From an uncultured SAR86 cluster bacterium (GTDB lineage: Bacteria > Pseudomonadota > Gammaproteobacteria > Magnimaribacterales > Magnimaribacteraceae), in contig CALJGK010000024.1 of the NCBI GenBank assembly GCA_938075195.1, positions 1 through 39,256 of the forward strand: DNA of 39,256 nt, given 5' to 3'. Position numbers and translations under genes: made by a program. A model generated the notes under the pieces. That model had not been told where the DNA came from. It saw only the letters and a program-made list of their open reading frames with translations, and made no database searches. This document shows positions 6,839-10,931 of the stretch, piece by piece. Positions within the stretch are counted from its first letter, which is position 1. Each line of letters begins with the position of its first letter.

Positions 6839-6930
6839 ATATAAGTTAATCATATAGTAAATCTTATGAAGGTGTATATTCCAAAAGGTAAAAAAAAGAG
6901 TTAGAGTAAGACTAATAATTGGGAAAATTA

Positions 6931-9141
6931 ATGAAGAATAAAATCTACTTTTTAGTATTTGCACTAGCGATAATTATTTCTGGTTGTAGTAATTCCGAGG
7001 AAGAGACTATTGCTGAAAAATCTATTGATTCAGGATCTTCGTCTATAGGTCTAATAGATGATGACAGAATATTATCTGCAGAATCTGAACCTGGAAATTG
7101 GTTAGCCTATGGAAGGACTTACGAAGAACAAAGATTCTCCCCCTTAGAGCAAATCAATAAAGAAACAATAGGTGATTTAGGACTAGTTTGGTCTAAAGAT
7201 ATGGGTACCAATAGGGCACTCGAAGCTACTCCAATAGTCGTTGATGGAATAATGTTTTTTACAAGCACCTGGAGCAGAGTTTATGCGGTTGATGCTTTGA
7301 CAGGAGAAACAATCTGGAAATTTGATCCAAAAGTTCCCGGAGAATGGGCAAGAAAAGCCTGTTGTGACATTGTGAATAGAGGTGTTGCGGTATACAACGG
7401 TAAAGTTTATTCCGCTAGTCTTGATGGAAGACTTTTTGCTTTAAACGCTGAAAATGGAGAACTAGTTTGGGAAGTTGACACCATCATTGATAGAACAAGA
7501 GCTTACACAATAACAGGAGCTCCCAGAGTGGCTAAAGGTAAAGTTTATATTGGAAATGGGGGAGCCGAATATGGCGTAAGGGGATATGTTACGGCTTATG
7601 ACTCAGAAAGCGGAGAGCAGGAATGGAGGTTTTATACAGTCCCTGGTAATCCTGATTTAGGCTTTGAAGATCCTGCAATGGAAATGGCTGCAAAAACTTG
7701 GAAAGGAACTAACTGGTGGGAATTTGGAGGTGGAGGAACAGTATGGAACTCAATAGTCTTTGATCCCGACTTTAATAATATTTATCTAGGTGTAGGAAAT
7801 GGCTCTCCTTGGACAAGAGAAATACGCTCACCTGGCGGTGGAGATAATTTATTTCTTTCGTCTATAGTTGCTGTTGATGCAGATACAGGTGTTTATAAGT
7901 GGCATTATCAAACTACGCCTGAAGATAATTGGGACTATACTGCTGTTCAAGATATGTCGCTAGCAGATATGGAAATTGATGGAGAAATGAAAAAAGTTCT
8001 ACTTCAGGCTCCAAAAAATGGCTTTTTCTATGTAATTGACCGAGAAGACGGGAAAGTTCTCAGAGCACATCCATTTGCAGCAGTTACTTGGGCAACTCAT
8101 GTTGATCTTGAGACTGGAAGACCGGTTGAAAATCCAGAAGTTGACTATACAGAAAATGGTGCCTGGGTCTTACCAGGTCCTCTAGGTGCCCATAATTGGC
8201 AGGCTATGTCGATCGATATTGATGCTGGGTTAGCCTACATACCTACTCAAGAAAATGCTTTTTTCTATGCAATACAGGAGGACTACAAAAAAACGGGTGT
8301 CTATAAAAGAGATCCGGGAAGATGGAATATGGGTATAGAAATGAGCTCGTTAGCTCAAAATATTTTAAATAATCTAGAATCACAACCAAAACCTGGAGGT
8401 TTTCTAAAAGCCTTTGATCCCCTTACAGGTGAAACAAAATGGTCAGTGCCTATTCCCCATTACTGGAATGGCGGTGTCCTTGGTACAGCTGGTGGACTGG
8501 TATTCCAAGGAGATGCATTAGGAATGTTTTCTGCTTATGACAAAGAAACAGGAGAAAGGCTTTGGGAATTCAATACATACACCTCAATGCTTGCTCCTCC
8601 CATCACTTTTGAAATTGATGGAGAACAATATGTATCAATCCTCACTGGCTCTGGTGGTGGTGATATGTTTGGTGGGGAGCCTTTACCACCGATAGAGGTA
8701 CAAGCCTCTCTAACGTATAATAATTTTGGAAGAATGCTTACTTTCAAGCTTGGGGGTCAAAAAACTCTCCCTATTCCAAATGTAAGAGATAAAACAATTC
8801 CAGAACAGAAACTAGTGCAAGTTAGCATTGATCAATTGCAAAATGGAGAAGGCAACTACAATGATTATTGTGCAGTTTGTCACGGATTTATTGTTAAATC
8901 TGCTGGTGGCATACCTGACTTAAGGAAAATGTCTGCTGGTACTCATGATGCATTTAATCAAATTGTTTTAGAAGGCCTGCTTGCAAGTAACGGTATGGCG
9001 TCATTCTCAGATGTTCTTTCTGAACAGGAAGTAGAAAATATTCATCATTATGTCAAAGCAAGAGCTCATGAAGATAGAGAAGTGGCTCTTGGTAACTTGG
9101 AAGCTCCTCAATTTACTTGGTTTGGACAAGAAGAGGAGTAG
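6931..9141 (+). CDS. PQQ-dependent quinohaemoprotein alcohol dehydrogenase, lipoprotein
   Basis: A 736-residue periplasmic dehydrogenase that would oxidise an alcohol and pass electrons through haem c to the respiratory chain. A lipobox ISGC (Cys19) predicts membrane anchoring. The eight-bladed propeller shows tryptophan-docking repeats (such as LDGRLFALNAENGELVW), a vicinal disulfide pair Cys144-Cys145 that contacts PQQ in this family, and DNWDYT with the likely catalytic Asp. A C-terminal cytochrome domain has CAVCH (Cys647, Cys650, His651) and a likely axial Met in NGMASF. The ATG follows GGGA at six bases; an in-frame TTG at 6919 has none. No PQQ synthesis genes lie in the window. The next gene is convergent, 1 nt away. 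Confidence 0.9.
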   Translation: MKNKIYFLVFALAIIISGCSNSEEETIAEKSIDSGSSSIGLIDDDRILSAESEPGNWLAYGRTYEEQRFSPLEQINKETIGDLGLVWSKDMGTNRALEATPIVVDGIMFFTSTWSRVYAVDALTGETIWKFDPKVPGEWARKACCDIVNRGVAVYNGKVYSASLDGRLFALNAENGELVWEVDTIIDRTRAYTITGAPRVAKGKVYIGNGGAEYGVRGYVTAYDSESGEQEWRFYTVPGNPDLGFEDPAMEMAAKTWKGTNWWEFGGGGTVWNSIVFDPDFNNIYLGVGNGSPWTREIRSPGGGDNLFLSSIVAVDADTGVYKWHYQTTPEDNWDYTAVQDMSLADMEIDGEMKKVLLQAPKNGFFYVIDREDGKVLRAHPFAAVTWATHVDLETGRPVENPEVDYTENGAWVLPGPLGAHNWQAMSIDIDAGLAYIPTQENAFFYAIQEDYKKTGVYKRDPGRWNMGIEMSSLAQNILNNLESQPKPGGFLKAFDPLTGETKWSVPIPHYWNGGVLGTAGGLVFQGDALGMFSAYDKETGERLWEFNTYTSMLAPPITFEIDGEQYVSILTGSGGGDMFGGEPLPPIEVQASLTYNNFGRMLTFKLGGQKTLPIPNVRDKTIPEQKLVQVSIDQLQNGEGNYNDYCAVCHGFIVKSAGGIPDLRKMSAGTHDAFNQIVLEGLLASNGMASFSDVLSEQEVENIHHYVKARAHEDREVALGNLEAPQFTWFGQEEE

Positions 9142-9142
9142 C

Positions 9143-9703
9143 TTACTGGTCTAAGATCATTGTTTTAGCAGGCAAATCTAATGGGGGCACTTCAATAAAT
9201 TCAAATGAAGGGCTCCCTAATTCCAGATCCCCTTCCTGAATGTCGTAAACATCGGAATCCTTTCCTTCATTGTCTTTATTTAAGACACCATAAGATTTTT
9301 TTCCATTAAGTTGCTGACCCTCTTTAATTTTATGAAGAGCATCTTGTGCCTTCTTGTGGTTGTTATCATTCCAGACCAACCTATAGGCTCTGGGATCACC
9401 AAATGATTTATTAAACTCATCAACTTCACTAACCCAAAGGAAAAGACTTCCTTCATTGCTCTGTGCTTTGTTAGGTTCTTGTATTACAACCCAATTAATA
9501 TTAAATAGTTCAGGTAATTCTTCTGAAGTTGGCCAGCCTAATATTCCCTCATACCCCTTCCAACTAAATATATAAAAGAAAGTTAAAACAACAATACCGG
9601 TTAATTTTATCTTTTTAGAAAAACCAGTATAAAAACAAAATATCAACAACAAGGCTGAAATGATTACGTAAGACAAAGTCAATAAGATCCTTTCTTCTAG
9701 CAT
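9143..9703 (-). CDS. Uncharacterised two-helix membrane protein of the ExbB/ExbD-like operon
   Basis: I do not recognise this 186-residue protein. Two hydrophobic helices lie near the N-terminus (about residues 8-27 and 33-52), ending in a W- and G-rich turn (SWKGYEGILGW). The remaining 130 residues are hydrophilic with mixed charge, contain VWNDNNHKKAQDALHKIKEG, which looks helical, and end in a proline-rich tail with acidic residues. It is the last gene of a tight set: its start lies 2 nt after the stop of the ExbD-like gene. That spacing suggests a third subunit or a load-bearing partner of the channel pair (inference). No signal peptide or catalytic motif is visible. Confidence 0.6.
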   Translation of the reverse strand: MLEERILLTLSYVIISALLLIFCFYTGFSKKIKLTGIVVLTFFYIFSWKGYEGILGWPTSEELPELFNINWVVIQEPNKAQSNEGSLFLWVSEVDEFNKSFGDPRAYRLVWNDNNHKKAQDALHKIKEGQQLNGKKSYGVLNKDNEGKDSDVYDIQEGDLELGSPSFEFIEVPPLDLPAKTMILDQ

Positions 9704-9705
9704 GA

Positions 9706-10320
9706 TTATTTAGATCCGAGTGCTTTTGTAAGAAGTCTTTTAGGGATTTGATTGGTATCAGAAACCTCTTTATCTCCATTTACAAAGAATCTTAGAGCGG
9801 TAATCTCATCCCCTACTCCATTAAGAAAATGTTGGCCATAATAAATAAGCTCTACTGAAGGATTTAATTTTTCTACCTTCACAGTCACGGGCAATGGTTC
9901 TTTAAAGTTAGACTTATAATGAAGGAGGTTAATTACATATTCTCCGGTCTGTAACCCTCTTACAGTTATTGTCTCTTGATTAATTGGACTAGAAACAACA
10001 TCACCTTTCAGATTGATATTATCTGCTAGGTTTCCTCTGTCATCCCGATCTAAATGCATTAAGCCTGAGTCTCTATTGTGATACCAAACTAATTTTCCCT
10101 GAGGATCCTCTACCACAGCATCTACATCATCAGGATGCTCGTCAGGCCATTGGACAGAGATTAACACCTCGGCTTTTGTATTAATATTGCCAGATTCTTC
10201 TGAGCTATTTATCAACATAAACGCTATTGCAAACATGAAAGCAAAACCGAGCAGTGCATTAAAGAGGAGATCTGTAAAAACATCCTGTTCTTCAGATTTC
10301 AAAAGGATTTTATTCTTCAT
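9706..10320 (-). CDS. MotB/ExbD-like one-helix protein with DUF2135/YfaP-like periplasmic domain
   Basis: A 204-residue protein with a short charged cytoplasmic start, then one membrane helix at about residues 17-37. Asp13 and Asp17 lie at the cytoplasmic entry of that helix; DLLFNALLGFAFMF resembles the MotB segment around its proton-carrying Asp. The periplasmic part is neither an OmpA-like peptidoglycan-binding domain nor the usual ExbD fold. It reads ISVQWPDEHPDDVDAVVEDP then SGLMHLDRDDRGN, resembling the beta-sandwich domain in YfaP/DUF2135 proteins (W...DLDL.V.DP.G pattern), and continues with GEYVINLLHY strands. The start overlaps the stop of the ExbB-like gene by ATGA. Domain assignment is by eye. 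Confidence 0.62.
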   Translation of the reverse strand: MKNKILLKSEEQDVFTDLLFNALLGFAFMFAIAFMLINSSEESGNINTKAEVLISVQWPDEHPDDVDAVVEDPQGKLVWYHNRDSGLMHLDRDDRGNLADNINLKGDVVSSPINQETITVRGLQTGEYVINLLHYKSNFKEPLPVTVKVEKLNPSVELIYYGQHFLNGVGDEITALRFFVNGDKEVSDTNQIPKRLLTKALGSK

Positions 10321-10931
10321 GGGTACTTTGAATTAAGGTGATTTAATGTCTGACTCAAGCTTGAATCTAATAAAAAATATTGAAATTTAAGGAGCATACT
10401 CGTTATAAGCCCTGTAAGAGTTGTGTACAAAGCAACTGCCATTCCACCACTCATGGTCGAAAGTAACTTTTGAAGTATCTGAGGATCAAAATCTCTAATT
10501 TCTCCAATTGGGAGCAGCATTAGGATAAAGCCGATCACGGTTCCAGTTAAACCAAGCTTTAGAAGAATATCTACAATCAAGTAGCCTATAGAGTGTCTAT
10601 TAGAAAGTTCATCTTCAAGCAAAGATAGTTTATTTAAAGAACCATATTCACTTTTAAGCTCTATTTCTTTTATAAATCTACCGATTAGGGTGTTCTCATT
10701 AGGGCTATCTATACTTGAAATCTCTTTATCTAAAGATAAGGCATTAAAAAACCAGTGCACACTAGAGATAAAATAGATTAATAAAATCACTAAAGATATT
10801 TTGCTTTTGTCTGATTCGATAATTAATCCGAATAAGCCTAAGTAATACAATAAATAGGCTGAGAAAACTATCAGGGAAAGAAGCAAAGATGCTTTCAAAA
10901 GTAAGTAATTCGGTTTTTTATAAATTAACAT
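10317..10931 (-). CDS. MotA/TolQ/ExbB proton-channel family protein
   Basis: A 204-residue polytopic inner-membrane protein with four predicted helices (about 11-36, 45-66, 113-138 and 151-178). The last two carry the family hallmark: LKLGLTGTVIGFILMLLPIGE, then MSGGMAVALYTTLTGLIT, matching the ExbB/TolQ small-residue helices with threonines that line the ion path. In this family five such subunits surround two MotB/ExbD helices to form an ion-driven rotary motor. The cytoplasmic loop between helices 2 and 3 is short (about 45 residues) compared with MotA. It overlaps the ExbD-like gene by 4 bp and follows the GFA gene by 5 nt. Confidence 0.8.
   Translation of the reverse strand: MLIYKKPNYLLLKASLLLSLIVFSAYLLYYLGLFGLIIESDKSKISLVILLIYFISSVHWFFNALSLDKEISSIDSPNENTLIGRFIKEIELKSEYGSLNKLSLLEDELSNRHSIGYLIVDILLKLGLTGTVIGFILMLLPIGEIRDFDPQILQKLLSTMSGGMAVALYTTLTGLITSMLLKFQYFLLDSSLSQTLNHLNSKYP

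Follow-up and report, generated by a model that had tools for sequence, protein, structure and literature searches.

The window analysed here, a stretch of 39,256 nucleotides from an uncultured SAR86 cluster bacterium, is contig C24 of a host genome of 1.39 Mb that is 83% complete. Three genes lie head to tail on its minus strand according to the list of open reading frames (ORFs): those of an A subunit (P0001; 10317..10931; 204 aa), a B subunit (P0002; 9706..10320; 204 aa) and a third subunit (P0003; 9143..9703; 186 aa). Their coordinates bear out the original prediction of an ATGA overlap between A and B and of a 2-nt gap between B and the third gene. Two features of B are marked on the same strand: the codon of Asp17, a predicted ion-binding carboxylate located from row conservation and profile alignment (10270..10272), and a stretch bearing D65, D67, D93, D94 and E116, located from row conservation (9973..10128). 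A PQQ-dependent alcohol dehydrogenase (PQQ-ADH), recognised by its match to TIGR03075, is encoded on the plus strand (6919..9141), convergent with the trio and 1 nt from the third gene. Window neighbours look metabolic by eye, and no Tol, Ton or flagellar gene stands beside the trio within the window, in agreement with the earlier claim that flagellar, Tol-Pal and TonB neighbours are absent.

Results

A channel-type subunit separate from the known sets tested

The A protein matches PF01618 (MotA_ExbB) at 7.2e-9, with 35.9 bits against a cut-off of 22.9, and its hydropathy profile has four peaks, as expected of the MotA/TolQ/ExbB-type channel with four helices that had been proposed. The MotA/TolQ/ExbB superfamily characteristically keeps hydroxyl residues in its two pore helices. 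In the trio these helices, the last two of A, hold Thr131, kept in 42/48 aligned A subunits, and Thr171, kept in 47/48, the phage-labelled rows among the 48 including the bacterial contigs L144, L145 and L146 with phage-like trios. Trios differ in the loop that joins helices 2 and 3, and in 23 viral contigs the A protein is short, at 137-179 aa. Comparison of the A profile with sequences of solved structures gave near-chance matches only (Motility protein A at E 0.93), and PADLOC returned weak ZorA matches confined to the last two helices, the best at 1.2e-4.

A tree built from 54 A subunits separates 48 trio rows, those labelled phage again including L144, L145 and L146, from six known rows with support of 96/89, the references being only E. 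coli MotA, ExbB and TolQ plus three host paralogues, with a warning of long branches from the program. Within these limits, the split agrees with the original placement of the pair outside the known TolQ, ExbB and MotA sets. The host also possesses motors of those sets: contig C60 carries TolQ-TolR and an OmpA-domain protein (Pal), the sole PF00691 match of the genome, while contig C13 carries two ExbB-like proteins and an ExbD together with a TonB-like ORF (TonB-like and TolA-like ORFs at the host loci were judged by eye). Both PF02472 matches of the genome are on contigs other than that of the window. Because the host Tol and Exb loci lie elsewhere and the A tree splits at 96/89, we regard the trio as distinct from the host sets. 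A stray Tol/Ton copy was considered and rejected on the same grounds, with TolQ-TolR-Pal and ExbB-ExbD at their own loci and trio A separate in the tree.

A one-helix B subunit with a predicted beta-sandwich

The hydropathy profile of B has one peak, and P0002 has no match at E<=1 in Pfam, PADLOC or NCBIfam; one weak match, to a group with no assigned function, was found in PHROGs. Structure predictions throughout were of single chains. The B model (mean pLDDT 82, from a 33-row alignment) comprises a helix at residues 4-38 and the strands of a beta-sandwich between residues 52 and 190. With this predicted fold, and with no match to PF02472 or to an OmpA domain, the periplasmic part is neither ExbD-like nor OmpA-like, as had been anticipated. 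With the model as query, a PDB fold search produced nothing at E<=1e-3, and neither ExbD nor OmpA chains are among the 50 matches listed; a viral structure library yielded eight matches at that threshold, of which one is a BACON-domain protein, three are called uncharacterized and four are unnamed.

Kinship with DUF2135, also part of the original prediction, is suggested by relatives of the protein: 7/35 members of the B family match PF09906 (DUF2135) at E<=5, weakly (best 8.8e-4) and with P0002 itself giving none, and a search with the B family profile picks up a protein that matches PF09906 at 3.8e-9 over the overlapping region. The periplasmic part of B is therefore predicted, with the sandwich coming from the model, to be a beta-sandwich related to DUF2135. 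A DUF2135 domain related to the periplasmic domain of B occurs at the C-terminus of a VIT-containing protein of 1118 aa at L153:1083-4436. Ten residues of B (W58, D65, D67, D93, D94, G96, E116, R121, G126 and E172) are identical in 92/92 covering rows, and because this set does not vary it suggests a metal or ligand site.

At position 17, Asp is found in 81/91 of the rows covering that site, Val in 6/91 and Ala in 4/91. Profile alignment places Asp17 weakly on ExbD Asp25 (E 0.0003-0.002, probability 14-41%) and more weakly still on MotB Asp32 (probability under 1%). The proposed likeness of an Asp at the helix entry to these residues thus holds up weakly by alignment, but the residue is not universal. 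Homologues with Val or Ala at this site (L094, L097, L098, L099 and L138-L143) make up ten rows, all of which keep Asp13 and have Lys21, and which count against a motor explanation. We infer that Asp17, where present, would be the ion-binding residue.

A third subunit without a known family

The third protein has only two Pfam matches at E<=1, both far under cut-off, no PADLOC or NCBIfam match at E<=1 and no family in PHROGs. Neither a TonB nor a TolA domain was matched in Pfam, and the best of the sequences of solved structures was near chance (gamma-glutamyltranspeptidase, E 0.69). A simple hydropathy profile shows a single peak, whereas a poor model (mean pLDDT 67) places two helices at residues 2-25 and 30-52, so that of the original description, a two-helix protein of no known family, the second part stands and the first is favoured by the model but not by hydropathy. 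As predicted from the model, the subunit would comprise two transmembrane helices and a small periplasmic domain. G56, P104 and R105 are conserved across 37 cellular-labelled and 28 phage-labelled rows, the latter taking in the bacterial contigs L144, L145 and L146 with phage-like trios, and the C-terminal tail bears Pro and Lys in cellular rows.

The trio is a conserved module of bacteria and phages

That the three genes form a unit, as the original prediction held, is seen in their adjacency across genomes: all three are present at 112/115 loci examined, a count that includes duplicates (SAR86 copies in two collections, L104/L152, L088/L073 and L089/L054), and P0002 may be counted twice among the B rows of this set. 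The three incomplete loci are L110 (a 3.3 kb contig), L054 (a short stretch) and L145, in which the third gene was not found by profile and an ORF of 157 aa comes next. Within the SAR86 set aligned, once near-identical copies are set aside, A proteins are 58-78% identical to that of the window, B proteins 73-94% and third subunits 40-74%; because the trio is conserved to this extent and the same gene order is also kept in far more distant genomes, we consider it more than a chance arrangement. An identical B protein is encoded in a named SAR86 genome.

Relatives of B were found in 29/61 related genomes, all 29 within the window's family, in 29/276 genomes of the class, and in 26/397 genomes of a phylum draw that overlaps the class sample, 2/26 of these being only domain-level or marginal. 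Trio genomes outside the class appear from their gene content to be Alphaproteobacteria. The third gene is present as a tandem pair in L094, L097, L098 and L099, and one genome holds a second trio copy (L093:9546-11887) near genes that look by eye like aldehyde:ferredoxin oxidoreductase and ferredoxin. In a plasmid search with B, only seven Azospirillum records matched, over 69-73% of the protein.

A tblastn search with B matched 27/50,697 phage records, all of them Rhizobium or Sinorhizobium phages. Three of these records label the matching genes hypothetical or give them just a number, and no PQQ gene is annotated in the three stretches. The full trio is present in 23/23 viral contigs (L074 and L154-L175, where L154 is the IMG/VR copy of phage 16-3; L075, which ends inside B, was excluded), the third gene of L174 being cut at the contig end. 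Asp17 is kept in 33/33 rows of an alignment of SAR86 and 19/23 viral contigs. No viral relative turned up when two other cellular B proteins were used as queries.

Spanin-like genes lie upstream of the L169 trio (L169:3627-4233), and an endolysin gene is upstream in L078 (801-1724) and in the bacterial contig L146 (9646-10230). Genes for trypsin-like proteases (phrog_9683) are found upstream in L146 and L168, between the lysis genes and the trio or nearby, and in phage RHph_N34 a late sigma factor comes after the trio. Phages carry a short version of the trio, which has lysis genes close by in the few loci inspected. Overall, the trio is a conserved module found in SAR86, in other members of the class, in another class of the phylum and in phages.

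Many cellular trios track PQQ-dependent alcohol dehydrogenase

The window dehydrogenase matches TIGR03075 at 2.6e-188 (627 bits against a cut-off of 480) and has a C-terminal cytochrome-c-like part whose cytochrome matches are under cut-off. In the class sample, where family totals were assumed (130, 150 and 157), TIGR03075 is over cut-off in 21/29 trio genomes versus 25/247 others (Fisher 8e-13). Two control enzymes show no link: SoxB occurs in 11/29 trio genomes versus 105/247 others (116 genomes, 115 of them over cut-off), and NosZ in 5/29 versus 36/247 (all 41 genomes at E<=1e-100, 26 of them over cut-off). A second set, partly overlapping the first and made up of 54 of the 76 trio-bearing genomes (7/29 of the window's family), has PQQ-ADH in 43/54 trio genomes versus 7/40 controls; these controls were taken from earlier listings, and the class sample of 276 genomes is the better test. 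Counted by family, PQQ-ADH is present in 17/24 trio families versus 4/29 families.

The two loci can also be close. PQQ-ADH lies within 10 kb of the trio in 15/54 genomes and 6/24 families, with 0.26 families expected. Every trio genome of the window's family (29/29) has PQQ-ADH 1043-1077 bases from the B match, and in the window's order the enzyme is present in 29/29 trio genomes and in 3/32 without the trio; the adjacency in this family is one inherited arrangement, stemming from a single evolutionary event, and the genes converge instead of forming one operon. Counting against a PQQ client are the 18/24 families without such closeness at 10 kb, the 8/29 trio genomes of the class sample without PQQ-ADH over cut-off, and the 25 PQQ-ADH genomes of that sample without a trio.

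Individual loci extend the association. On one strand of L095 the trio is preceded by genes for PQQ-ADH, a cytochrome identified by eye, a binding protein, the SoxYZ-like carrier TIGR04557 and the zinc hydrolase TIGR04558, and is followed by one for a putative lipoprotein. In L150 the trio has pqqB, pqqC and pqqE upstream in the same orientation, and further quinoprotein genes are found in L138, L148 and L108. Many cellular trios thus track PQQ-ADH, and on this statistical link PQQ alcohol oxidation is the best-supported client link in cells.

Directly behind the third gene, a small putative lipoprotein is encoded in L095 (6785-7486) and L102 (6837-7553), a possible client or partner; it is DUF3108-like, over cut-off in L102 and just below it in L095.

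The PQQ-ADHs near the trio in L082, L095, L108 and L148 have an Asp two places past the catalytic Asp, which we take to be a lanthanide mark. The window dehydrogenase has Thr, not Asp, at this position, and lanthanide dependence as a general rule was rejected for lack of the extra Asp in that enzyme.

Discussion

The PF01618 match, the four helices, Thr131 and Thr171 of A, the alignment of Asp17, and the helix and predicted sandwich of B together argue for a motor. We consider it probable, though well short of certain, that the products of the trio form an ion-driven complex in the inner membrane, one that belongs to the MotA/ExbB class and serves a client in the cell envelope, in many cells within a PQQ alcohol-oxidation module. 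By analogy with known motors, the A subunits would form a channel ring and the B helices an axle, presumably in a 5:2 assembly, and ion flow past Asp17 would drive the ring against the axle. The beta-sandwich of B and the third subunit could then pass this movement to a periplasmic client, which in many cells might be the cofactor or metal supply of the PQQ alcohol-oxidation module, its assembly, or an outer-membrane step; the short phage copy would do an envelope job of its own. We infer ion flow, assembly, ring-axle arrangement, force transfer and load alike from the analogy. A more specific version appears doubtful: a motor driven by the proton-motive force and dedicated to quinoprotein alcohol oxidation (with PQQ and calcium or a lanthanide), in which the DUF2135 axle with its acidic cluster would load or mature the dehydrogenase or its metal or cofactor supply, and from which phages would have taken a pared-down copy that acts on the host envelope at about the time of lysis.

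The trio might instead be a general, Tol-like motor for envelope maintenance acting on peptidoglycan or an outer-membrane lipoprotein, controlled by a kinase in some lineages, with the PQQ link as a by-product of lifestyle. We regard this as possible, if on the unlikely side. It would fit the gene row L,D-transpeptidase, DUF302, trio and VWA-FHA protein in L079 (3382-8378), L080, L087 and L088, the families having been checked in L079 only, and the protein kinase and phosphoesterase that adjoin the trio in L139 and, judged by eye, also in L141 and L143; the 8/29 trio genomes without PQQ-ADH point the same way. However, the four genomes with the L,D-transpeptidase loci have PQQ-ADH too, the link stands at the family level with two control enzymes showing none, and linkage is close with quinoprotein genes in L095 and with pqq genes in L150.

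A TonB-like energiser of outer-membrane uptake, with the third subunit acting as TonB in the import of PQQ or lanthanides, seems unlikely. Although a TonB-dependent receptor gene lies directly upstream of the trio in L149 and four PQQ-ADHs bear the presumed lanthanide mark, the third subunit lacks a TonB domain and its periplasmic part is short, Thr occupies the mark in the window dehydrogenase, and the host already possesses an ExbB-ExbD locus that includes, by eye, a TonB-like ORF. MEALZ_3990/3991 of Methylotuvimicrobium alcaliphilum, called MotA/TolQ/ExbB, reportedly fall when La replaces Ca (PMC6277846), and would favour such uptake if they were the trio. Anti-phage defence of the Zorya kind, or superinfection exclusion carried by phages, would account for the weak ZorA matches of A and for the presence of the trio in phages, yet that same presence speaks against defence, as do the metabolic look, by eye, of the window's neighbours, the absence of a long tail on A and the lack of any PADLOC match for B and the third protein. 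We judge it very unlikely, and Zorya itself was rejected, with A matching ZorA weakly over its last two helices only.

To our knowledge, few loads are known for the MotA/ExbB motor class. A conserved trio that combines a new axle domain with a third subunit of no known family, a statistical tie to PQQ alcohol oxidation and short copies in phages would offer a new load to find. Its natural variants, with and without Asp17 and with long or short cytoplasmic loops, make it possible to test directly which features the motor core requires, the B rows lacking Asp17 being a natural test of the need for that residue.

No description of the trio was found in the literature within the parts of open-licence PubMed Central articles available to us, nor is such a trio mentioned in the available text of a 2022 review of 5:2 motors (PMC9389320). 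Compared with ExbB-ExbD and TolQ-TolR, the trio shares the A family PF01618 and a one-helix B whose entry Asp aligns with ExbD Asp25, but its B lacks PF02472 and carries a predicted DUF2135-related beta-sandwich, its A has four predicted helices and stands apart in the tree, and its third subunit has no TonB or TolA match. With MotA-MotB it shares a four-helix A with a TM2-TM3 loop and, weakly, the alignment of Asp17 with MotB Asp32, whereas its B has no OmpA-like domain, its A loop is short and no flagellar gene was seen in the window. The likeness to ZorA-ZorB is a distant one, in the last two helices of A; trio B has no ZorB match, A (204 aa) has no long tail, and phages carry the trio. The generic ion transporters of a 2025 MotAB survey (PMC12505986) are likewise non-flagellar A-B pairs with varied periplasmic parts, their B subunits being described there as carrying a compact peptidoglycan-binding fold, but a DUF2135 axle, a PQQ link or a phage-borne copy is not mentioned in the available portion of that survey. 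Finally, the B domain is profile-related to YfaP/DUF2135 proteins and differs from them, P0002 itself having no Pfam match, in being joined to a motor-type transmembrane helix.
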